Source: Okeania sp. SIO2C9
GTDB taxonomy: Bacteria; Cyanobacteriota; Cyanobacteriia; Cyanobacteriales; Microcoleaceae
Direction of reading: 5' to 3'
NCBI RefSeq assembly: GCF_010672455.1
Contig: NZ_JAAHGO010000044.1
Span: 5,376 to 69,375 of the forward strand
DNA length: 64,000 nt
In this document: piece after piece, positions 10,741 to 57,990 of the stretch
How positions within the stretch are numbered: position 1 is the first letter of the stretch
Layout of the letters: each line of letters opens with the position of its first letter
Program-made: the position numbers and the translations under genes
Notes under the pieces: model-generated
The model's database searches: none
What the model was told of the DNA's origin: nothing
What the model saw: the letters and a program-made list of their open reading frames with translations, nothing else

Positions 10741-11025
10741 CACATCCTTCGGATCGCAGGTGTTACCCTGACGCTCGTGTTAGCGTAGTGCCTCCTTCGG
10801 AGGAGCTACAACACCATGGCAGTTGCGTGACTGTCGGGAGACCCGCAAGGGCCTACTGGCTTCTCTATCCCATGGTCAAAGACATTTAGGACTACTTTTC
10901 TCATTATGTTTAGAAAACCATTAACATCAGCATTGATGGATCCAATGCTTACGGTACGATTGCATTCCTCTTTGTCTTGATGCAGTCGCTCATGGGGGAA
11001 ACCCCCTTTGGCGGCGCTGCATCGC
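10735..11025. repeat. Cluster of small GC-rich palindromic repeats
   Basis: At 10781-10808 lies the CCTCCTTCGGAGGAGC palindrome. At 10983-11021 lies TCGCTCATGGGGGAAACCCC followed by GGCGGCGCTG, which has near copies at 31799-31833. Their GC content stands out from the AT-rich surroundings. The second lies within the TnpB remnant without breaking its frame. Confidence 0.6.
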
Positions 11026-11087
11026 TTTACTCTTTTTTCAGAAAAGGTGACATAATTTTTCTCACCTTCAGTGTACACTGGAATCAA
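10806..11087 (-). pseudogene. C-terminal remnant of a second TnpB type
   Basis: The 93-residue frame contains SEKRVKR and, later, SINADVNGFLNIMRKVV, which is the last RuvC segment of a TnpB subfamily (its catalytic Asp lies in NADVNG) different from the TnpB at 4301. The expected glycine-rich link between these two blocks is replaced by CSAAKGGFPHERLHQ, encoded by the GGGGGAAACCCCC palindrome. No upstream RuvC or zinc region is left. It is therefore a dead fragment, kept open by chance or by the in-frame nature of the insert. Confidence 0.65.
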
Positions 11088-11182
11088 ATCATTATCTATA
11101 AAATTTGCTTTTGAGGACTAAATTTAATGGGATACCCAAAATAAGAGTTGGAATAAGACAAGAAAACTTTTTGAGAGTAACA

Positions 11183-12223
11183 TCAGTTTAAATTCTTCAT
11201 TTTATTCCTTATTAACATAGAGATTTTTCTAATTTTTAACTGAGCTTGATACTTAATCTGTTTCCTTAAAATCGGTATAAAAAGTTTACGCACATAGCGA
11301 AATACATTGTCTTCTATGAAGAAAATAGTTTTTTCATGTATTCCAATTTCAGTCTTTCCAGATGTTTCTAATTGATACCCATAAATCTTTAAACCATCCC
11401 CTGCAATAGACTCAAGAATTTCAATTTCTCGCTTTGTAAGTTTTTTTCTAAAAATACCTACTTTTTGGTTAGAGATAGGTTTATTGAGGGAATCAACAAA
11501 GAGGATCTGATTGACAATAGAACATTCTCCTTTCTGTTTCTGGCAGATTTAGGTTTACAGTTTCATAGTCTTCTTCAAGAAAATATTTAATTTTCTTTAA
11601 CTGATTTTCTAAATCTAGAACTAAATCTTCGTAATGAATTTCTAGGAATTGATCGGAATTTATAGTTTTCTTGAATTCGTCAAAAGTAATAACGTATTCT
11701 CTCCATCTATGTGCTATGCCATAGATACTTTTTGGACCAAGAAAAACTCTTTTCAACGATTCGGCTACGTCCCTGCCATCTCGTATTATATGGATAAATT
11801 TTGCCTCTGGAAATAATTTATGAATTTCTTTTAAATATCGTATGTGCTGTGGAGTCTGATCTCCCCAAAGTTCATACCTGCTTTTTGAGCATAAAGTTCA
11901 AAAAGCAAGGAAATGACACCCTTTACTCAGGTAATTTTAAGTTGCTTGCAAAAATCGATTACTGATATTCCTAAACCCCACTCTTTTATACATAGATCCT
12001 GTAGAATATGCTTGACAAAAAGGTAAAGATTAGAGTCTTTTTGTAGAACTCCATAATAGTCGAATATATCGGAAAAACGTTCAAAAATATGACTTTCTGA
12101 AGGAATAATAATATTCGGGTGGGCATCTATAAGAATTTGAAGCAAAGTTGTGCCTGAACGTGGACAAACTACCATAAAAAATGGTATTTTTAGAATTTGC
12201 GAAATATCCTTTTCTGTAACCAT
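11183..12223 (-). pseudogene. Decayed sulfotransferase, paralogue of 20734-21768
   Basis: The whole length aligns with the intact sulfotransferase at 20734-21768. The N-terminal part (11927-12223) keeps the phosphosulfate-binding loop CPRSGTTLLQILIDAHPN and runs to a stop after DFCKQLKIT. After a broken stretch (11757-11926) in which the substrate region and 3'-phosphate motif are out of frame, the middle part (11493-11756) is open again from VFLGPKSIYGIAHRW to MFYCQSDPL. The C-terminal quarter (11183-11490) is readable as IGIFRKKLTKREIEI-like sequence and ends at a TGA near 11183. At least three frame breaks are present. It is a recent decay product, because identity to the intact copy is still very high. 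Confidence 0.85.
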
Positions 12224-12323
12224 CTTAAAATTATTAAAATTATTAAAATTATTTGTATCAGCAGCCCAATAGTTGTTAAGTAAACTATCATTTACAATTT
12301 TGAAAAATTAAATACTATTGAAT

Positions 12324-13715
12324 ATGAAAAAATTACTAAGTCGTCTGGATTGGTCTTATTTTTATTCTCTTTTGGGAGAGGGAACTCTAGCTCTAACATT
12401 TGTCTTTTATATTATTCTTGCTCGTTTACTTGGTCCAGAACGATATGAAATATTTACATCAGCAGCAGCTTTAGGGGCTATTTTATCCTTATTCATACAG
12501 TGTGGATTACCGATTCTGATTCAGCGTGAAGTGGCAGCTAATCCAGAAGAAGGGTCAAAATATACAATCCAATTTCTATTATTAGAAGTTTTGAATGTTT
12601 TACCAGTTCTCATCTTATTATTTCCAATTAGCCAATTGCTAAATTACCAAGGAGAAGGACTGATAGTATGTTATCTCGTGGTGTTTGCTGAACTGTGCCG
12701 TCAGATTAAATTAACTTTGCGGGGGGTTGCTAAAGGGATGGGTTGGTTTAGAACCGAAACTATTTCTGTGGCAATTGAGCGTTTGTCAGTAGTATTGATT
12801 GCTTGTGCGGTCTTGTTCTGGACGAATAATTTGGTATTGGTAGTTGCGAGTTTAGTACTAGTTCGATTGTTGGAAAACTTGGGTTTTATTTACTATTTGA
12901 GCCGAAAACTCACAGTATGGCGTGCTTTCAATGTCAATAGTTTAATGGGAATTTATCAAATGGCCTTCCCTTTTGCTTTGTCTGGGGTATTCTGGATGCT
13001 TTACTACAAAATTGATTTGGTCATGCTCAAAGGGATGGCTGAGACTGGAGAGACTGCATTCTATAGTGCATCTTACCAAATTATGGAGATTTTTTCTGCT
13101 CTGCCTAGAGTAGTTTTCTATGTAATTTTTAGTAGATTAGCTCGCTACCACGCTAACGAACCTGAGAAAATTCCAGAGCAAATCTATAAAGCAACTCGCG
13201 TACTTCTGCTATTGGTTTTGCCTTCGATAGTAATTGCTGGATTCTTTCAAAGTTATTTAGTTGAGCTTCTTTACGGTAACGAATATTCCTATTCAGCTCA
13301 ATCTCTAGGTATTTTGATTCCCAATATCAGTATTGATATGTTCGGTATGTTGGTGCTGCAGCTTTTTCTAGCAACTAAACGAGAAAAATATTTACCACCT
13401 TTGTTGATACTCAGCACCATTATCAATATTGTCTCTAACGCTATACTTATCCCATTGTTAGGATCTGTCGGTGCTGCTTTATGTACTTTATTCAGTTCTG
13501 GAGTTTTATGCGTAATTGGTCTGGGAATTATGAGCCGTCTAGGGTACAAAAAAGTTGGACATAAATTACAGTTAATTGCTACAATGAGCTTACTTTTAAC
13601 GACAGTCCCTTCTCTAATAATGAATGGATTACAACCCCAGATCGGCATTGCCTTAATGATTGGAAGTATAACAGTTTTAGTAATGCTGATGCGCCCTCGC
13701 AAATTTTTAGCTTAG
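12324..13715 (+). CDS. Wzx-type polysaccharide flippase (MOP superfamily)
   Basis: 463 residues with about twelve to fourteen hydrophobic helices and the usual N-terminal sequence of the polysaccharide_synt family (LGEGTLALTFVFYIILARLLGPE near residue 16, with GPERY at the end of helix 1). This family flips undecaprenyl- or lipid-linked oligosaccharides across the cytoplasmic membrane. It is the only plus-strand gene in the first 30 kb, and it lies between sulfotransferase genes on the other strand. The start was set at the ATG at 12324, because the frame's first codon is a TTG two codons upstream. A decayed copy of the same gene is found at 10208-10740 in opposite orientation. The glycan it moves is presumably the one made and sulfated by the neighbours (inference). 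Confidence 0.88.
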   Translation: MKKLLSRLDWSYFYSLLGEGTLALTFVFYIILARLLGPERYEIFTSAAALGAILSLFIQCGLPILIQREVAANPEEGSKYTIQFLLLEVLNVLPVLILLFPISQLLNYQGEGLIVCYLVVFAELCRQIKLTLRGVAKGMGWFRTETISVAIERLSVVLIACAVLFWTNNLVLVVASLVLVRLLENLGFIYYLSRKLTVWRAFNVNSLMGIYQMAFPFALSGVFWMLYYKIDLVMLKGMAETGETAFYSASYQIMEIFSALPRVVFYVIFSRLARYHANEPEKIPEQIYKATRVLLLLVLPSIVIAGFFQSYLVELLYGNEYSYSAQSLGILIPNISIDMFGMLVLQLFLATKREKYLPPLLILSTIINIVSNAILIPLLGSVGAALCTLFSSGVLCVIGLGIMSRLGYKKVGHKLQLIATMSLLLTTVPSLIMNGLQPQIGIALMIGSITVLVMLMRPRKFLA

Positions 13716-13763
13716 TGATTCAAAATCTTAAGCTATTTTGTCTTTCTTACGCCAAAGTTTCAA

Positions 13764-14801
13764 TTAGAGGTTTCTCATCAATGAGCTTTTATAAAGTGAA
13801 GTAGGGCTATTTAAACCTAATCTGAGATTCAAGTAAATTTTCAACTCTTGTAATGCTTCAATTTGACCTTTGCGGTTTTTCATCATCGCCAAAAATTTCC
13901 GAAGAGGATGCTCGATATATTGAAATTGTAGTCTTTCTAAGTTGGAAATCTGTGGTTTTGCCAGCTCTCTCTGGTAGCTGTAGCGTTCTAAAGTAGGGCC
14001 TGCTACTGCTTCAAAAATACGCAGTTGGCGTTCTGTCATCTGTGTACGCCACTTTTCGGTATTACTGCTGATAATAGGACGAGAAAGATTCTGGAGATTT
14101 TGCTTGTCGGTTCTATATGGTGCATTATCTTTGTAGAAATTTAGCATTTCTGGAGTATATTCCTCTACTAGAAACGCACACATCTGTTTTAAGACTTGCT
14201 GAGGGTTTAGTAAAAGTTTTTCATATCGGACTTCAAAAAATGAATTTTGAGCTAGGAGAATTTTCAGCTCCTCAATCACTTCCAGATGCTTTACCCAGCC
14301 CCAAGCTGCGAGATAAATATGTTTAGGCCCCATACGGGATTTTAGCCAAGACAATGCACAATCACGTCCATCACGAACAATATGAATAACTTGTAAATTG
14401 GGAAATCCATTCAGAATTTCACGCCAGTAAAAAAGATGAGCAGGGGTTTTCTCTCCCCAACGCTGTTTTCCCCGATCCTTAGCCCAAGTAAACATAATTG
14501 CCTCAAAAATGCCATGAAAATCATATCTCTGAATAGCTTTGATGGTATTTTCTCTATTTGGATAAGGAGACCAATCAGCAAGTGGGCCTGTACTGAAAAT
14601 GTCATCTAATAGACGTTCTCGATTTTTAGGAAGGTTTAAATCTCCGTAATACTTTAACCAGTGATAAAATGTCTTATATACATGAGACTCAAAGGGTACA
14701 GCAATTCTTGGATGACTATTGAGTAGTTTACTCAGCAAGGATGTTCCTGATCGCGGACAACCAAAAATAAATATTGGCCGTTCATAATTTTTTGTATCCA
14801 T
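13764..14801 (-). CDS. Sulfotransferase family protein (PAPS-dependent)
   Basis: 345 residues. The 5'-phosphosulfate loop is near residue 14 (FGCPRSGTSLLSKLL) and the 3'-phosphate motif is near residue 137 (IHIVRDGRDCALSW), both in the expected order for PAPS-dependent sulfotransferases of the Sulfotransfer_3 type. The cognate histidine or acidic base is probably among residues 35-60 (PFESHVYKTF) or in GEKTPAH near 115. It would transfer sulfate to a sugar or lipid hydroxyl. The start ATG at 14801 is clear. It is convergent with the flippase gene, 48 bases from its stop, and is distantly related to the sulfotransferase at 20734. Its place in the glycan island suggests sulfation of exopolysaccharide or a glycolipid (inference). 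Confidence 0.88.
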   Translation of the reverse strand: MDTKNYERPIFIFGCPRSGTSLLSKLLNSHPRIAVPFESHVYKTFYHWLKYYGDLNLPKNRERLLDDIFSTGPLADWSPYPNRENTIKAIQRYDFHGIFEAIMFTWAKDRGKQRWGEKTPAHLFYWREILNGFPNLQVIHIVRDGRDCALSWLKSRMGPKHIYLAAWGWVKHLEVIEELKILLAQNSFFEVRYEKLLLNPQQVLKQMCAFLVEEYTPEMLNFYKDNAPYRTDKQNLQNLSRPIISSNTEKWRTQMTERQLRIFEAVAGPTLERYSYQRELAKPQISNLERLQFQYIEHPLRKFLAMMKNRKGQIEALQELKIYLNLRLGLNSPTSLYKSSLMRNL

Positions 14802-30832: not shown

Positions 30833-31743
30833 TTGGTAGTGGTGCATTGTAATTTTTTCGGTAACGGTATAGCAAGCATTTCAGCCACTATTCACCATTA
30901 CTATACAGGACTACCTTGTGTCCCAACTACAATTACAGTTAAACTCGACCCCAGTAAAAGATGGTCAGTGTCCCTTAGAGTCAATGACCCTAGAAACTTG
31001 AAGCTTAAACCAGTAACCAAACAAGTAGGTATTGACGCGCGGAATTACCAGTTTAGTGACTACCAGTGATGGAGAAAAATTCGCCTACCCTAAGAATCTA
31101 AATAAATTACACAAGAAACTTAGGTTAGCAGGGAAGTCTTTATCTAGAAAAACTAAAGGATCTAATAACTACCAAAAGGCTAGACTAAAAGTAGCCAGGA
31201 TACACGCAAAAATTAAAGATTCAAGGCTTGATTACACCCATAAGCGCGCCTACTCAATTAATCGCCCGAAAATCAAACTGTTGTGGTTGAGGAAATAGCC
31301 GTAAAGAATATGGTCAAAAAGCGGTGCGACCCCGCGACGACGCCAGCTCGCTTGCGGAACGCGCACCAACAGACCATAAGTTAGCCAAAGCAATAAGTGA
31401 TGCCAACTGGGCAGAGTTAGTCAGACAGTTAGAATACAAGGCTCAATGGTATGGACGGGAATTAGTCAAGATTGACAGGTATTTTCCCAGTTCTAAGCGT
31501 TGTTCTAATTGTGGTCATGTAGTAGGAAAATTACCTCTAAGCGTGAGAGAGTGGAATTGTCCTGAATGTGCAACTCACCATGATCGAGACATAAATGCAA
31601 GTATAAATATTTTGCGGATGGGAACCCGCGGGGTGCGTAAGACGCAAGCGGTCAGACCCCGCGCCGCCGACAGGCGCAAGCGGTCGGAACCCGCGACGAC
31701 GCCAGCTCGCTTGCGGAACGCCGACCAAGAGAGGGAACGCTGA
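30833..31743 (+). pseudogene. tnpB: Decayed tnpB
   Basis: Three successive frames give one TnpB. The first (30833-31069) is the wedge region, ending KPVTKQVGIDA with the first RuvC Asp, then shifts. The second (31032-31298) is LVTTSDGEKFAYPKNLNKL to a helical stretch. The third (31324-31743) carries KAISDANWAELVRQLEYKA, then CSNCGHVVGKLPLS and NCPECATHHDRD with the zinc ligands and last catalytic Asp, ending NASINILRM. The N-terminal domain is missing. Short GC-rich repeats (the GCGACGACGCCAGCTCGC type at 31333-31366 and 31680-31723) interrupt it before the third block and again replace its C-terminal tail. It cannot make an active nuclease. Confidence 0.85.
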
Positions 31744-32808: not shown

Positions 32809-35800
32809 ATGGATAAATTTCGAGTAGAAGTGATTGCTAAAACTTTAAATCCTCAGCAGGTAATTTATGCAGCTCTGCATCAAGATGTGCGGTTCGTTTG
32901 AGGTGTAATGACCTCAGCACCTTCTTTTCAACAGAAAGGCGGGTCAATAGGGAAGGGATAAAACCCGATACCGAGACAACTCATTTCCCGTAAGGGTGAG
33001 TCAAATCACGACCAGAGTCACATGGTCAATAAACATCAGGTCATGGCAAGATTTAACAAAAAGTTAATATAACTACGTTAAATAGGTATAAAGATTTGAC
33101 AAGTCCCTTCTCGAAAGTACCTCGATGACAGCATATACCCCAATGTTAAGCAGGTAGCGACTACTGACATTGAAGCGGGTATAAAAGCGAACAAATACCG
33201 TAACCTAAATGGAAATTTTTCGCAAGCACTCAGTCATGGGTAACGAAAGTGAACTTCTATATTTGTCGTGAGCAGCAAAGTTACGAAATTAGGTTGACAC
33301 GCAGCGGTCAAAATGACCAAAGGTTAAGGGATAAATACGAGTCTTGGTATTTATCGGTACTCCAAAATAACCTCGGCAAAAAGGAAGACCCTAAAACTGA
33401 TACCAACGGGAAATGGGAACGAATTAAATCTAAGGATGGCTCTTAAAGTGGTCGAATCTTTGAGTAGTAGCTAGCGTAAGCCACCTTAGATGGGATTGAA
33501 TCCGAAGCTAATGCCAATTTGTAATGAATTGGATATGCCTACAGATTCACAATTTAGGAATTATACGTTCTTAAGTAGGAGTAAAATATGTCCAGAACAG
33601 AGATAAAATCAATGTTGGAATGGAAAGACATTGACTGGAAAACAGCCGAAAAAAACGTCTTCAAGCTCCAAAAACGAATCTATAATGCTTCTAAAAGTGG
33701 AAATGTGAGGTTAGCCCGCAAACTACAAAAGTTGCTTGTCAAATCCTGGTCAGCAAGACTCATCGCAGTAAGAAGAGTCACACAGGATAATAAAGGGAAA
33801 AACACGACAGGGGTAGATGGGAAGAAATCCCTTCATCCCTCAGAAAGACTAAAGTTAGCCCAAAAGCTAAAGTTAAGTCATAAAAGCACGCCAACCAAAA
33901 GAGTTTGGATACCCAAACCTGGAAGGAAGGAACAAAGACCTTTAGGAATCCCAACCATAGAGGAACGAGCCAAACAAGCCTTGCTAAAACAGGCTTTAGA
34001 ACCTGAATGGGAAGCAAAGTTTGAACCAAACTCTTATGGATTTAGGCCAGGAAGAAGCACACATGATGCGATATCAGCAATCAGAAAATGTATACAGTTC
34101 AAACCAAAATTTGTATTGGACGCTGATATATCTCAATGTTTTGACAAGATAGACCACAATAAATTATTAGAGAAAATCGACACATTCCCCAACTTTAGGA
34201 GACAGATAAAAGCTTGGTTAAAATCCGGGGTCATTAACGATGACTTCCTGGAAAACACCGAAGCTGGAACTCCTCAAGGGGGTGTAATATCACCACTATT
34301 GGCTAATATTGCACTACATGGAATGGAAAAAATACTAGAGGAACATTTCCCTGGGAGAAAAGACGGTAGTATCCGTAATTGCGAAAGAATTTACGGAGAA
34401 AGAGTATCAGTACCTAGACTAATTAGGTATGCAGATGATTTCGTAGTCATTAATGAGAAATTAGCCGTAGTCGAAGAATGTACCGAAATAATCAAAACGT
34501 GGTTAGGAGATTTGGGATTAGAACTCAAACCCAGCAAAACCAGGATAGTTCACACACTGGAACGACATCAGGGTCAAGAACCAGGATTTAACTTTTTAGG
34601 GTGTAATATCCGACAATATAAAGAAGGAAAACACACATCCAAGAAGATTAAATCAAGGTTCGGAGAAAAACTAAAACCATACTCCATAATAGTCAAACCC
34701 TCTAAAGAGAGCATCAAGAATCACTACGACAAAATCGCTGCTGTAGTTCATAAACATCGAGCAAATTCTCAGGAAGTGTTAATCAAAGAATTAACACCAA
34801 TTATCAGAGGATGGTGTAACTACTATGCATACCACAATTCAAAAGAAGCCTTCAATGAATTAGATTATTTAATCTATAAAAGGTTATGGAGATGGGCGTG
34901 TAGAAGAAGCAGAATGAAGAAAACAGCGGGATGGATAGCGCAGAGATATTGGCTGACTATAGGTAATACCAAATGGAATTTCGCCTATAAGTCAAAAGAG
35001 GGAATAATCAAGCTTCCTCATTACCGCGAAACACAAGCGAGTAAAACGTATGTGAAAGTCAAGGGAGATGCTTCCCCTTACAACGGAGATGATAATTATT
35101 GGTCAAAGAGATTAGGGGATAAATATAAAACCTCAGACTCTCAAAAAGCCAGAATTATCAAAAGACAAGCAGGAAAATGTACTGAATGCGGACTAACTTT
35201 CAAAACTGGAGATATAGCGCTACGCGCAAGTCAGATAGGGGAGCCGTCGGATTGGCGACGTACATAAGTTAGAAGTCAGAAGTAATTCCTGACTAACTTT
35301 GAGGATTTATAGATGTCCTAACCTATTTGCGTAGTGCTATATATCGGAAAAACACCACATTGAGCACAAAGCTGAAGGTGGAGACAATACCGATAAAAAT
35401 CTAGAAGTATTACATTTACACTGTCATGACAAAAGACATGACCCTCGGAAGTCGCTGCAAGCAAAGGCAGCAGTCCTAAATTGAGGAGCCGAATGAGGTG
35501 AAAGTCTCACGTTCGGTTCTGAAGCCGAGTATATAAGGTAATTTATATGCTTAGGGTAACTACAGTGAAGGATTTGTATTTTACGAACAAGATAATTGGC
35601 CTTCGGAAGCAAAATGTGGGGAAATTATTGTCAAGCGACTTTTGGCAGGAGACCGTGGTCATTATGGGTGTATTGAGCATCCTCAAATTACTTTTAATTG
35701 TGGTTTTTTTCCCCATAGTGTTATGCAGCAAGCAAGAACTCATAGAATAGGTTGTTGTTTGTCGGGTAACACAAAGGTTAGATTTGGGCATTCGTCTTTA

Positions 35801-37273
35801 TCTAAAGGAGAGAAATATTATGAAGAAACAATTGAAAAATTAGCTAATTTATGGCATTACGGGAGAAAACATCAACAAACTTCTAATGATGCAAAATATA
35901 TGCAAGAAAGTATATCTAGGCGTACTATTTTGACTTTAGATACTAAAACTAACCAACTTGTTTCCAGTAAAATAACCAATATATATATTAATGGCGAACA
36001 AGAAACCTACACAATAAAAACTGTTTCTGGTAAAGAAATAAGAGCTACACTAGAACACCAGTTTTGGACTAATCAAGGGTGGAAAAGGTTAAAAGAATTT
36101 AACAGTAGCACTCAATTATGTGAAGTGCAATTAACTGGTATTGAAGAAGGAGTCAGGAGTCAGGTAGGGGAGCTGTCGGATTGGCGACGTACAGGAGTCA
36201 GGAGGGAAAATTGCATGGAAATTCTAACCCTGAACAATTTTGAGCACCGTGTAGACGGTGGGGTATTAAACCCGCAAAAAAAAGATAAAGTTGCTCCACA
36301 AGAAATTAATTTTATGGAACAAGAAATATTAGATGAAAAGTGGATACCTGTAAGAAATTATGAAGGATATGAAATTTCTAGTTTGGGTCGTTTGCGTTCT
36401 TATCTTCCTAGAGGAGGAAGGGGAGATCGTTCTCAGTTATTGTCAAATTCTAAGATTAAAAAACTGAGCAAATCTAAAGATTATTTATTTGCTAGTTTAG
36501 GTCATGGAATAGGGTCTGGTAAAGTATCACGAGTAAATATACATAGGTTAGTCATAGAAAACTTTGAACCATTGGGAGAAAATGAGCAACTTGAAGTCAG
36601 ACATTTAAACGGAAATAGTTTTGATAATAGGTTAGAAAATCTTGCCTGGGGTTCTAGTAAAGATAACAAAATTGACAATATAAGAAACAATAGTTTGTCT
36701 TGTAATCGTGGTGTTTTTGTGGGAATAGAATCTATTGAAAAGTTTGGCAAAGAAATTACTTATGATATTGAAGTAGAACATCCAGAGCATAATTTTATAG
36801 CTAATGGTTTAGTTGTTCATAATTCTTTCGATGTACAAAGTTATCGATTTTGTTCGGGAAAAGTTATTGCAGTGGCAGAGGGAAAAACGGATATAGAGAC
36901 TGCTTTTTACTTACGTCCGGTGGGAGAATATTCTGATCGTCAGGGGAAGAAATATTATTATTCTGCTGAACAACGAGAACAAGATTTACAGTGGTGTTTG
37001 GAGGCAGCGAAAAAATACAAACTTGATCTGGAATTAGGAATGTCTGAAGAACACGCTAGAGGAAAAATTCCTTTTGATTATCGTCAGCATTTTGTTGTTA
37101 GTTTTAATTGTCGTAGTTTGCTACATTTTTTGGATTTACGTTTCAAAAAGAATGCTCAATTGGAAATTCAAAAACTTTGTGAGTTAATGTGGCCTCATGT
37201 TCAAGATTGGGTGCCGAATATAGCAGAATGGTATGAACAAAATAGGCTAGGAAAAGGTAAATTATCTCCTTAG
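32809..37273 (+). CDS. thyX: Flavin-dependent thymidylate synthase ThyX, split by a group II intron and an intein
   Basis: The host gene is in three parts. Exon 1 is 32809-32886 (26 codons, ending LHQD). Exon 2 resumes at 35561 with YSEGFVFYEQDNWPSEAKCG and runs to 35755. The last part is 36824-37273, from SFDVQSYRF to the stop. Joined, they give about 240 residues, normal for ThyX, without loss of residues at either joint. Known role: ThyX makes dTMP from dUMP with methylene-tetrahydrofolate and FADH2. The signature motif is spread over ARTHRIGC and SFDVQSYR, and the intein sits inside it. The group II intron interrupts after codon 26. RNA splicing and then protein splicing are both needed for active enzyme. 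dut and dCMP deaminase follow on the same strand. The ATG at 32809 matches the family N-terminus (MDKFRVEVIA). Confidence 0.93.
33588..35267 (+). CDS. ltrA: Group II intron reverse transcriptase/maturase, HNH domain truncated
   Basis: 559 residues. An RT fingers-palm domain covers about 60-350: KRVWIPKPGRKEQRPLGIPT near 104, YGFRPGRSTHDAI near 149, LDADISQCFDKIDH near 174, GTPQGGVISPLLANI near 228 and the catalytic RYADDFVVI near 280. The maturase X domain follows (about 370-470; LTPIIRGWCNYYAYHNSKEAF). A C-terminal HNH nuclease starts at GKCTECGLTFKTGD near 527, but the frame then runs into a MITE-like insert and stops. Beyond the insert, the second half of HNH is still readable in the original frame (EKHHIEHKAEGGDNTDKNLE). 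So splicing functions should remain, while DNA cleavage for homing is probably lost. AGGAG lies seven bases before the ATG. Confidence 0.93.
   Translation: MSRTEIKSMLEWKDIDWKTAEKNVFKLQKRIYNASKSGNVRLARKLQKLLVKSWSARLIAVRRVTQDNKGKNTTGVDGKKSLHPSERLKLAQKLKLSHKSTPTKRVWIPKPGRKEQRPLGIPTIEERAKQALLKQALEPEWEAKFEPNSYGFRPGRSTHDAISAIRKCIQFKPKFVLDADISQCFDKIDHNKLLEKIDTFPNFRRQIKAWLKSGVINDDFLENTEAGTPQGGVISPLLANIALHGMEKILEEHFPGRKDGSIRNCERIYGERVSVPRLIRYADDFVVINEKLAVVEECTEIIKTWLGDLGLELKPSKTRIVHTLERHQGQEPGFNFLGCNIRQYKEGKHTSKKIKSRFGEKLKPYSIIVKPSKESIKNHYDKIAAVVHKHRANSQEVLIKELTPIIRGWCNYYAYHNSKEAFNELDYLIYKRLWRWACRRSRMKKTAGWIAQRYWLTIGNTKWNFAYKSKEGIIKLPHYRETQASKTYVKVKGDASPYNGDDNYWSKRLGDKYKTSDSQKARIIKRQAGKCTECGLTFKTGDIALRASQIGEPSDWRRT
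35212..35343. mobile_element. MITE-like insert in the HNH domain of the intron protein
   Basis: The ends are inverted repeats: ATATAGCGCTACGC at the left and GCGTAGTGCTATAT at the right, one mismatch apart. ATATA is present at both ends and may be a target duplication. Removing about 127 bases restores the HNH frame (TGDIS-EKHHIEH). The interior holds GGGGAGCCGTCGGATTGGCG, a repeat also found at 36164, 51222 and 57926, plus GAAGTCAGAAGT. The insert encodes no protein. Confidence 0.85.
35756..36823 (+). mobile_element. Intein in ThyX with HNH-type homing endonuclease
   Basis: 356 residues in frame with thyX. Block A is CLSGNTKVRFG with Cys1, block B is SGKEIRATLEHQFWTNQGW with the conserved TxxH, block F is ITYDIEVEHPEHNFIANGL, and block G is VVHN followed by Ser of the C-extein. 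These are all residues needed for protein splicing. The endonuclease in the middle begins WIPVRNYEGYEISSLGRLRS (NUMOD4 type) and continues VNIHRLVIENF and VRHLNGNSFDNRLENLAWGS (HNH_3 type). Between block B and the endonuclease lies a stretch of about 45 residues encoded by a dispersed repeat (36148-36290) without breaking the frame. Confidence 0.93.
36148..36290. repeat. Dispersed repeat inserted in frame in the intein
   Basis: It contains GAAGGAGTCAGGAGTCAGG, then GGGAAAATTGC, then ATTCTAACCC, AATTTTGAGCACCG and a GTGGGGTATTAAACC end. A near copy is at 55978-56105 in non-coding sequence. The copy in the intein has in addition GGAGCTGTCGGATTGGCGAC spliced into it. The product stretch begins EEGVRSQVGELSDWRRTGVR and reads to GGVLNPQKKD. 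Confidence 0.85.
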
Positions 37274-37687
37274 TCTAGTGGTGGGGAGTAGGGCAGTGAG
37301 GGAGTAGGGGAGTGAGGGAGTGGGGGAGTGGGGGAGTAGGGGAGACCTGGAGTTGAAAAAACTGTTTCGTATTCTTTGTAATTGGAGCTGAGGTAATTTG
37401 TCTCAAGTTCAATCAATACCATTACGGTTGCAGGAGTGCTAAAATTGGGAAGTTCCTATCAACCTAATTCTTTCGGAAAATGGAATTATTAGATGATAAA
37501 TGACCTCAATATTCTGCTCTCATTTGTGTTTTTGCTCCCTAAATCTCATCTGCCTTACTAGCAAAAGATGTATTACACTTTTTAGGATGGTGAGATAGAT
37601 TGATTAATTTATTTTCCCTTTTCCCTGTTCCCTATAACAATAAAAATTTGTATCTAATTAACTCGATAACTGCTGTAATTGAAAATA
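37274..37687. other. Gap between thyX and dut with G-rich tandem repeats
   Basis: No gene. 37278-37345 is a run of GGGGAGTAGGG, GTGAGGGA and GTGGGGGA units, the reverse complement of the CTACTCCCC repeats found elsewhere in the window. The rest is AT-rich. Confidence 0.5.
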
Positions 37688-38116
37688 ATGAAACTTAAAG
37701 TTAAAAAGTTAGATGAATCGGCAATTGTTCCTTATTATGCACATCCAGAAGATGCCGGATTAGATTTATTTTCTATTGATGAATTAACTATTAATCCTGG
37801 AGAAAGCCAATTAATTCACACAGGTATTTCTATTGAATTACCATCAGGAACAGAAGCACAAATTCGTCCTAGAAGTGGGTTGGCTTTAAAACATCAAATT
37901 ACAGTTTTGAACAGTCCTGGAACTATAGATGAAACTTATCGGGGAGAAATTGGAATAATTTTAATTAATCATGGGAAAAATTCTTTTCAAGTCACGCGAG
38001 GAATGAAAATAGCTCAAATGGTTATAGCATCAGTATTATCTGTTAATGTAGAAGAAGTTGATGAATTAAGTACAACAGAAAGAGATATTAAAGGATTTGG
38101 TTCTACAGGAATATGA
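37688..38116 (+). CDS. dut: dUTP diphosphatase (dUTPase)
   Basis: 142 residues. The five dUTPase motifs are in order: DAGLDLFS near residue 21, RPRSGLALK near 60, [17 protein letters not shown] near 82, QMVIA near 110 and the C-terminal arm GFGSTGI. It hydrolyses dUTP to dUMP and pyrophosphate, supplying the ThyX substrate and keeping uracil out of DNA. It acts as a trimer. The ATG at 37688 was chosen over a TTG three codons upstream. Its stop overlaps the start of the dCMP deaminase gene by four bases, so the two are coupled. thyX lies 414 bases upstream on the same strand. Confidence 0.95.
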
Positions 38117-38661
38117 CAGAAAAATTATATCAAAGACCAACCTGGGATGAATACTTTTTAATGATAGCTAAACTAGCTGCTACTCGTTCAACTTGTCTTG
38201 CTTTTCCTGTGGGTGCAGTAATAGTTAAAGATAAACAAGTTTTAGCAACTGGTTATAATGGTTCTCCTTCAGGTTCTGCACATTGTACAAGTCAGGGTTT
38301 TTGTTATCCTGAATTAAGTAGTTGTGATGCTAGTAAAGTTTTACCATCTCGTTCTGTTCATGCAGAAGCTAATGCTATTGCTCAAGCTGCAAAACATGGA
38401 ATATCTACGAATGGAGCTGTTATTTATGTCACCTTAGAACCTTGTCTTTATTGTTTGAAATTAATTATTTCTGCTGGTATTAAAGAGGTTTTTTATGAAA
38501 CTTCTTTTAATAGTGGGGAAAAGGCAGCTTTAAGAGATATGTTTATCAAAGAGGGTTTAGTTACTATTCAGCAAATTCAAGTCTCAGAAACAATTGCTCA
38601 AAAAGCAGCTACATCTCTACTTCATCCCACCTCAATAAAAGCAGAAAATAGAAAAATGTAA
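38113..38661 (+). CDS. dCMP deaminase (ComEB/dCD type)
   Basis: 182 residues. The zinc and catalytic site is [12 protein letters not shown] near residue 77 (His, Glu) with [10 protein letters not shown] near 105 (two Cys). Upstream, [14 protein letters not shown] near 24 and [13 protein letters not shown] near 46 match bacterial dCMP deaminases. It turns dCMP into dUMP, a second route to the ThyX substrate besides Dut. The ATG overlaps the dut stop (ATATGAC), a sign of translational coupling. Together thyX, dut and this gene form a dTMP-supply cluster. The C-terminal 20 residues are variable. Confidence 0.93.
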
Positions 38662-51109: not shown

Positions 51110-51300
51110 ATAATTGGGCCGCGCAACCCCGCCGGGAAATGGCGAAATATTTTTAGAGCGGAGCTCAAATCCCCTACTTCCCCTCCACGGTCGGGGGAGG
51201 GGCTAGGGGTGGGTTAACTTCTGTACGTCGCCAATCCGACGGCTCCCCTATCTGACTTCTGAATTATGACTTCTGACTTCATTAACTGTGGCGGGTTTAA
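51110..51300. repeat. Composite dispersed repeat
   Basis: An inverted copy of 30640-30760 (GCGCAACCCCGCCGGGAAAT, AAATATTTTTAGAGCGGAGC), followed by GTACGTCGCCAATCCGACGG, shared with 35233, 36164 and 57926, and a GGCGGGTTTAATACCCCACC end, shared in reverse with the repeat in the intein. Confidence 0.7.
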
Positions 51301-55977: not shown

Positions 55978-56105
<128 letters not shown>

Positions 56106-56219
56106 AATAAATTCCTTTTGGAAATAGTCTTTATATAATTCAGTATTCAACTTTCATAATTAATTTGATACTTGATTAATTAGAGTTTGTTGATTAAATC
56201 TAAAAGTATTTACAGATAA

Positions 56220-57789: not shown

Positions 57790-57990
57790 TATTTTTGACA
57801 TCTTCCCGACGTTGCGCTTAGGCAAAAACGCAGGATTCTTAACCATCGCTGATTAGTGCTTTCTGCTTCTAACACACCTGCCTCGAAGGTTTTTACCTCT
57901 TTCTGGTCTAAAGGCGCGCTCCACAGTACGTTGCCAATCCGACGGCTCCCCTAGACACTGCTTGCCCTGTGCCGTGCAGACTTAGTTGAG
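57790..57990 (-). ncRNA. Solo right end / omega-RNA remnant of a TnpB element
   Basis: On the minus strand it reads TGTGGAGCGCGCCTTTAGAC, then AAGCAGAAAG, GGTTAAGAATCC and CGTCGGGAAGATGTCAA. This matches block by block the right end behind the dead tnpB at 31835-31985, but no tnpB is left here. A GTCGGATTGGCAACGTAC repeat (57926-57951) has been inserted before it. Confidence 0.6.

Follow-up and report, generated by a model that had tools for sequence, protein, structure and literature searches.

Can a thyX gene that is interrupted both by a group II intron and by an intein be the gene from which a cell makes its thymidylate synthase? The question is raised by a locus at positions 32809-37273 of the window, by which we mean the whole 64,000-nucleotide stretch of DNA analysed here, from an Okeania-type cyanobacterium. 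We answer it in the affirmative, with high confidence: the locus would be a working gene, and probably the only one, for the thymidylate synthase of an Okeania species, and the intron and then the intein would be spliced out to leave a ThyX of 240 residues.

Anatomy of the interrupted gene

A first, sequence-only reading of this DNA had described a group II intron after codon 26, an intein of 356 residues inside the ThyX signature motif, exon and extein joints that restore a normal ThyX, and smaller repeats inside both inserts. This anatomy stood when it was compared with RNA and protein models, with the products of joining and with relatives (Table 1). The intron comprises 2,674 nt; its domain V scores above the Rfam gathering scores (RF00029, 51.4 bits versus 40; RF04357, 63 versus 53), and its ORF encodes a group II RT/maturase (TIGR04416, 338.7 bits, cut-off 300), below called the IEP. 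The intein runs from C1 to a terminal HN, is followed by a +1 Ser and exceeds the cut-offs of PF14890, TIGR01445 and TIGR01443; NUMOD4 and HNH_3 matches, also over cut-off, lie inside it.

When exons and exteins are joined, a continuous protein of 240 amino acids results. The ORF that includes a part of the N-extein together with the C-extein matches TIGR02170 with 123.7 bits (cut-off 87.9) and Thy1 with 100.9 bits (cut-off 24.8). The boundary of exon 1 is identical in the window and in the relatives L033, L035 and L062, and exon 2, with the intein included, spans 35561-37273. Compared with two sister genomes, both inserts are longer, the intron by a stretch at about 35213-35338 and the intein by 144 nt.

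An intact dut lies 3' of thyX and is overlapped by a deoxycytidylate-deaminase-like gene, which scores 136.6 bits with TIGR02571, under the cut-off of 219.45. In one relative (L062, MO_207.B10; region 10757-13786) the downstream dUTPase gene is apparently interrupted too, near 11019: its frame breaks at the 5' end GTGCGACTCG, a match resembling domain V follows at 13535-13580, and from 13612 the gene continues. ORFs at 31032-31743 of the window resemble, judged by eye, pieces of an IS200/IS605-type TnpB.

Table 1. Features of the thyX locus and its 3' neighbours, in coordinates of the window
Feature	Coordinates	Strand	Basis
thyX exon 1, codons 1-26	32809..32886	+	continuous ThyX frame when joined to exon 2
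Group II intron, phase 0, codon 26/27	32887..35560	+	GTGCG 5' end, GGGTAAC 3' end, domain V/VI, IEP
Hairpin, loop with putative EBS1 (33341-33347)	33330..33355	+	pairs with IBS1 at exon 1 end
IEP, 559 aa: RVT_N, RVT_1 and GIIM maturase domain, without HNH endonuclease domain	33588..35267	+	Pfam, NCBIfam
123-bp inverted-repeat element in the endonuclease part of the IEP, holding a 44-nt repeat	35216..35338	.	extra versus L033, L035
Intron domains V and VI up to the 3' splice site	35484..35560	+	RF00029 match, fold
thyX exon 2, second part of N-extein, residues 27-91	35561..35755	+	exon/extein joining
Intein, 356 aa, at residues 91/92 in the ThyX motif RTHRIGC/SFDVQS	35756..36823	+	PF14890, TIGR01445, TIGR01443; site common to relatives
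144-nt (48-codon) in-frame palindromic repeat, 44-nt repeat nested inside	36141..36284	+	inside intein
NUMOD4 and HNH_3 homing-endonuclease region of intein	36335..36667	+	Pfam
C-extein, residues 92-240 and stop	36824..37273	+	Thy1, TIGR02170 over cut-off
dut (dUTPase gene), intact, 3' of thyX	37679..38116	+	
Deoxycytidylate-deaminase-like gene, overlapping dut	38113..38661	+	PF00383 over cut-off

Probable use of the interrupted copy

The genome to which the window belongs (10.88 Mb in 317 contigs, 99.98% complete) contains thyX once; two profile matches were obtained, and both are parts of the window gene. The earlier reading had named a second intact thyX or a thyA elsewhere as the sign of a dead copy. 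We searched the 317 contigs for both and found neither a thyA nor a second thyX, and it is unlikely that a thyA is hidden in a gap of this assembly. Among 59 related genomes, thyX was found in 40 and thyA in 17, with both in a single genome (G012) and neither in three (G005, G034, G052); the two enzymes therefore largely replace each other within the order.

Single ORFs of 540 amino acids in two of these genomes (L020 in G057 and L021 in G056) match Thy1 twice apiece, which suggests a fused tandem ThyX. In thyX-less genomes such as G014, G017, G019, G032 and G035, the thyA matches are partial (about positions 90-228 of the 266 of the profile) and the ORFs measure about 505-513 amino acids, suggesting a divergent, longer ThyA.

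Purifying selection has acted strongly on the exteins, with dN/dS between 0.040 and 0.176 in all 21 pairs among seven Okeania and Trichodesmium species that carry differing inserts; these estimates describe the past of the lineage, not its latest generations. The simplest reading is that each of these seven lineages makes a normal ThyX after splicing. Taken together, the lack of any other thyX or thyA among the contigs and the purifying selection on the exteins argue that the window thyX is very probably the working copy and in use. From the same evidence we infer that both splicings, that of the intron and that of the intein, take place and are probably needed for ThyX.

The opposite reading is that thyX is a dying copy in which one or both inserts no longer splice, with dTMP coming from salvage or from a synthase missing from the assembly. 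It could draw on the loss of the endonuclease domain from the IEP and on the further repeats in both inserts. We consider it very improbable, given that no other thymidylate synthase was found in this genome, that selection has kept the exteins so strictly, and that the splice junctions, the intein motifs and the maturase domain are all intact.

The sequence-only reading had also proposed that two successive splicings could act as a control on dTMP supply, and for this part of it we found nothing. In such an explanation the splicings would be a regulatory device that is conditional, for example on redox state through Cys91 beside Cys1 of the intein, and that sets dTMP supply. As a flavin redox enzyme, ThyX stands at a step worth controlling, and all nine Okeania and Trichodesmium carriers for which the junction was read have Cys at residue 91, against Val or Ile in the intein-less ThyX proteins compared. 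However, a more distant intein carrier (L051) has Met at this position; the combinations of inserts vary among close relatives, with none in L063, which is parasite-like rather than typical of a conserved switch; and no regulatory element was found. Passages of one study (PMC3620165) moreover describe the related Ter ThyX mini-intein as about 100% spliced in E. coli, which argues against a step so slow as to set the rate. Control of dTMP supply by splicing is thus possible but unsupported, and as the explanation of the two inserts we give it very little credence.

The inserts and the repeats within them

Comparison with the ThyX of Trichodesmium and Okeania, which the first reading had suggested as a check, revealed a common intein site and sets of inserts that vary. 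In a close set of 13 thyX genes (the window and L052-L063), 12 are interrupted, in eight combinations involving five intron sites and two intein sites; L063 has no interruption. Introns lie at codon 10/11 (L056, L059), at 26/27 (window, L053, L054, L062), in codon 66 at phase 1 (L060, and L061 with the 3' junction only), at 69/70 (L058) and at 83/84 (L062). L058 also carries, at 26/27, an intron of another lineage, of which the 3' junction alone is on the contig. An intein occurs at 91/92 in 10 of the 13 and before residue 63 in L052 and L057; a third intein site, after residue 96, is in use in 12 of 47 named loci from a pattern search, which makes them a biased sample.

In-frame inserts before residue 63 were located in L032 (7298-8296), L037 (5130-6128), L018 (1984-2949) and L097, and in L032 and L037 they occur together with the 91/92 intein. 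As a single sequence, the L032 insert, which precedes Cys63, gave no NCBIfam match, Pfam matches under cut-off only, and a weak PDB match (E 0.078); a profile of three such sequences matches the solved intein AceL NrdHF-1-1 (E 1.9e-5). This match and the junction residues point to the insert being probably a LAGLIDADG-like intein, which would give the ThyX of L032 and L037 two inteins.

Near-full homologues of the first 700 bases of the window intron were found in four of the 59 genomes (its own, G002, G004 and G011), all in thyX at codon 26/27, and short partial matches to this 5' part in 11 further genomes, with nine or fewer candidates scored per genome. Because these homologues all occupy one site, and because the closest other intron protein in the same genome is about 53% identical, the intron looks like a resident of that site rather than a member of a spreading family. 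Its putative EBS1 is the sole 7-mer in the first 700 intron nucleotides that pairs with the last seven exon bases in all four homologues; as about 0.34 chance matches are expected by our own arithmetic, this is not statistically striking and is supportive at most. No convincing EBS2-IBS2 pairing was found in the intron.

The homologous IEP of L062 (G011) is intact, with 600 amino acids and an HNH domain (PF01844, E 3.5e-9); a Pfam scan of the window IEP gave no HNH match. In three Okeania copies the endonuclease end is broken by different lesions, namely a 123-bp inverted-repeat element with a stop in the window and a one-base frameshift in G002 and G004, accompanied by a TAG in G002. For the IEP, dN/dS is 0.19-0.23 in three pairs, and when the window is compared with either sister, about 200 sites of the D region hold two non-synonymous changes. 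The RT, maturase and D regions have been kept and the HNH lost, as expected if splicing is selected and mobility is not.

As for the intein, Cys1, the TxxH of block B, the C-terminal HN and the +1 Ser are invariant in the 11 inteins aligned, and all 11 inteins at 91/92 are free of stops and have lengths divisible by three despite large indels; what lies in their centre varies between a full HNH region and next to nothing. In the window, the homing endonuclease is present as domains and looks complete, and it may be inactive. A structure prediction for the intein from the 11 sequences was poor (mean pLDDT 46.6, pTM 0.37).

Between the window and G004 there are 7 differences in 924 intein bases versus 31 in 720 extein bases (Fisher p 2.7e-6), and at synonymous sites 4 of 185 versus 22 of 142 (p 1.3e-5). 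That the intein is closer to G004 than the exteins are suggests that the intein segment was recently exchanged between lineages. Viral contigs searched with an intein profile yielded 50 loci, none a close relative; 45 match solely the last 22-44 residues and five extend further, four of these at 26-33% in the best segment. Compared with L035, window positions 35800-36530 show nearly no differences from G004 amid a divergence of 3-5%, as after recent recombination.

Inside the intein, between its splicing block and its endonuclease, lies the 144-nt palindromic insert, which the Okeania sisters G002 and G004 lack. Among the 11 inteins it is absent from L033, L035, L038, L036, L039, L040, L041 and L051, and variants of it are present in L032 and L037. 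Its right part of 98 nt occurs in at least 32 places in the genome. Of the 32 copies listed, four sit within long ORFs, where they share one reading frame. The window insert has a single open frame out of six, so that any copy which leaves the ORF around it open would be expected to be read in that frame. In these 32 copies, ATGAT stands at the right end of none of the four in-ORF copies versus 21 of the 28 others, and the right tail is GATAA in 27; the remaining five end at GAT as printed, three of them being seen to continue with AA. The coding form, in which ATAA is not preceded by TGA, is possibly a subfamily adapted to ORFs.

The repeat is also held in frame by 19 stretches picked for their long open frames, and ten such ORFs that were scanned include histidine kinases, DUF1688 proteins, a CobN-type chelatase and a photolyase-related protein. 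Also among the ten is a copy within the intein of a GDP-mannose dehydratase/epimerase-type protein (a sugar-nucleotide dehydratase) of G001 (L229, 1204-4500, reverse strand). One histidine kinase has the insert in the window's own genome and in G003, and its orthologues in G002 and G004 (88-92% identical) are without it. Empty sites are available at two loci, the intein and this histidine kinase, and at both the point of insertion is immediately 5' of ATAAA.

We think it rather likely that the Rickettsia palindromic elements (RPEs) have a cyanobacterial counterpart in the Okeania repeat, which would be a mobile, palindromic, protein-coding element that enters in frame 5' of ATAAA and persists in conserved proteins and inteins. 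If so, thyX would hold selfish DNA inside a selfish protein element inside an essential gene. The coding repeat is perhaps moved by an IS200/IS605-type transposase. That the 144-nt insert is instead a chance tandem expansion, as its left part of GAGTCAGG-type short tandem repeats, variable among genomes, might hint, is extremely unlikely in the face of the many genomic copies of its right part, their in-frame presence in unrelated proteins and the orthologues that lack the insert at two loci.

The 123-bp element in the intron has 10-bp inverted ends, matching in 9 of 10 positions and, as read from the sequence, lying between ATAT direct repeats; these are the inverted ends and target duplication by which MITEs are recognised. 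Alleles without it are seen in L033 and L035, and the alignment gap at this point (126, the extra stretch mentioned above) exceeds 123 because these two have one extra base. A 47-nt repeat is common to the extra stretches of intron and intein, with 87% identity, and its 44-nt core has many copies in the genome, at 93-98% among the matches listed. The window holds additional copies of these two repeats, the coding one and the 44-nt one, at 56006-56107, 51215-51262 and 57926-57953.

Proposed course of events and known systems

We propose that the pre-mRNA would first lose the group II intron, aided by its own maturase, and that the precursor protein would then lose the intein from its catalytic motif to yield the 240-residue ThyX. 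The intron would have turned into a splicing-only resident, with RT, maturase and D kept and the endonuclease broken, and the intein would have retained its complete-looking homing endonuclease region and been exchanged recently between lineages. Small palindromic repeats would have entered both inserts, one of them cutting the IEP where splicing has no need of it and the other entering the intein in frame, between splicing block and endonuclease.

The thyX genes of Okeania, Trichodesmium and their close relatives form a natural series in which introns and inteins were gained at several sites of one probably essential gene. Such a series offers a direct view of three processes: the loss of mobility by an intron that keeps its maturase, the transfer of inteins from lineage to lineage, and the settling of small repeats in protein-coding DNA that survives their arrival.

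A search of one paper collection returned none combining 'Okeania' and 'intein'. Liu and Yang reportedly described, in 2004, a thyX with a group II intron and an intein in Trichodesmium erythraeum, and both inserts are present in the T. erythraeum thyX record that we examined (L060/L036). Like the window gene, it has one group II intron and one intein, the intein being allelic at residues 91/92. The intron of T. erythraeum GBRTRLIN201, however, lies in codon 66 at phase 1, ends in GTTTAAC and has a remnant IEP match only, whereas that of the window lies at codon 26/27, belongs to another lineage and encodes an IEP of 559 amino acids. The presence of an intron and an intein in one thyX is already known from a relative, and the window gene is assembled differently; what differs is the intron lineage and site, the IEP kept with its endonuclease broken, and the two nested repeats. 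A study from 2003 is said to have found a build-up of splicing elements, acting on RNA and on protein, in a single deoxynucleotide-synthesis gene of a related cyanobacterium; that case differs from the window thyX in the gene, in the insertion sites and in having more inserts.

Mobile elements are likewise nested within a protein gene of a cyanobacterium in the case of the Tery_4732 twintron, where, according to passages of PMC4649490, a group II intron is itself host to a second one and both are spliced. The nesting in the window differs from what is described there, consisting of a short inverted-repeat element in an intron ORF and an in-frame repeat in an intein rather than of an intron in an intron.

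The closest parallel to the in-frame repeat is offered by the RPEs (Ogata et al. 2000, 2002), which passages of PMC10969869 and PMC3733652 describe as multi-copy elements of about 100-150 nt, found in frame in unrelated genes and encoding a conserved peptide; these passages describe no in-frame palindromes in cyanobacteria. The Okeania repeat resembles the RPEs so described in its size, in being palindromic, multi-copy and in frame in unrelated genes, and in coding for a conserved peptide. It differs from them in its cyanobacterial host, in occurring also inside inteins and in its insertion 5' of ATAAA at both of the empty sites that were read, and its sequence looks unrelated, the likeness being one of description and not of alignment. 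If this likeness holds true, the repeat would extend the Rickettsia phenomenon to free-living cyanobacteria.
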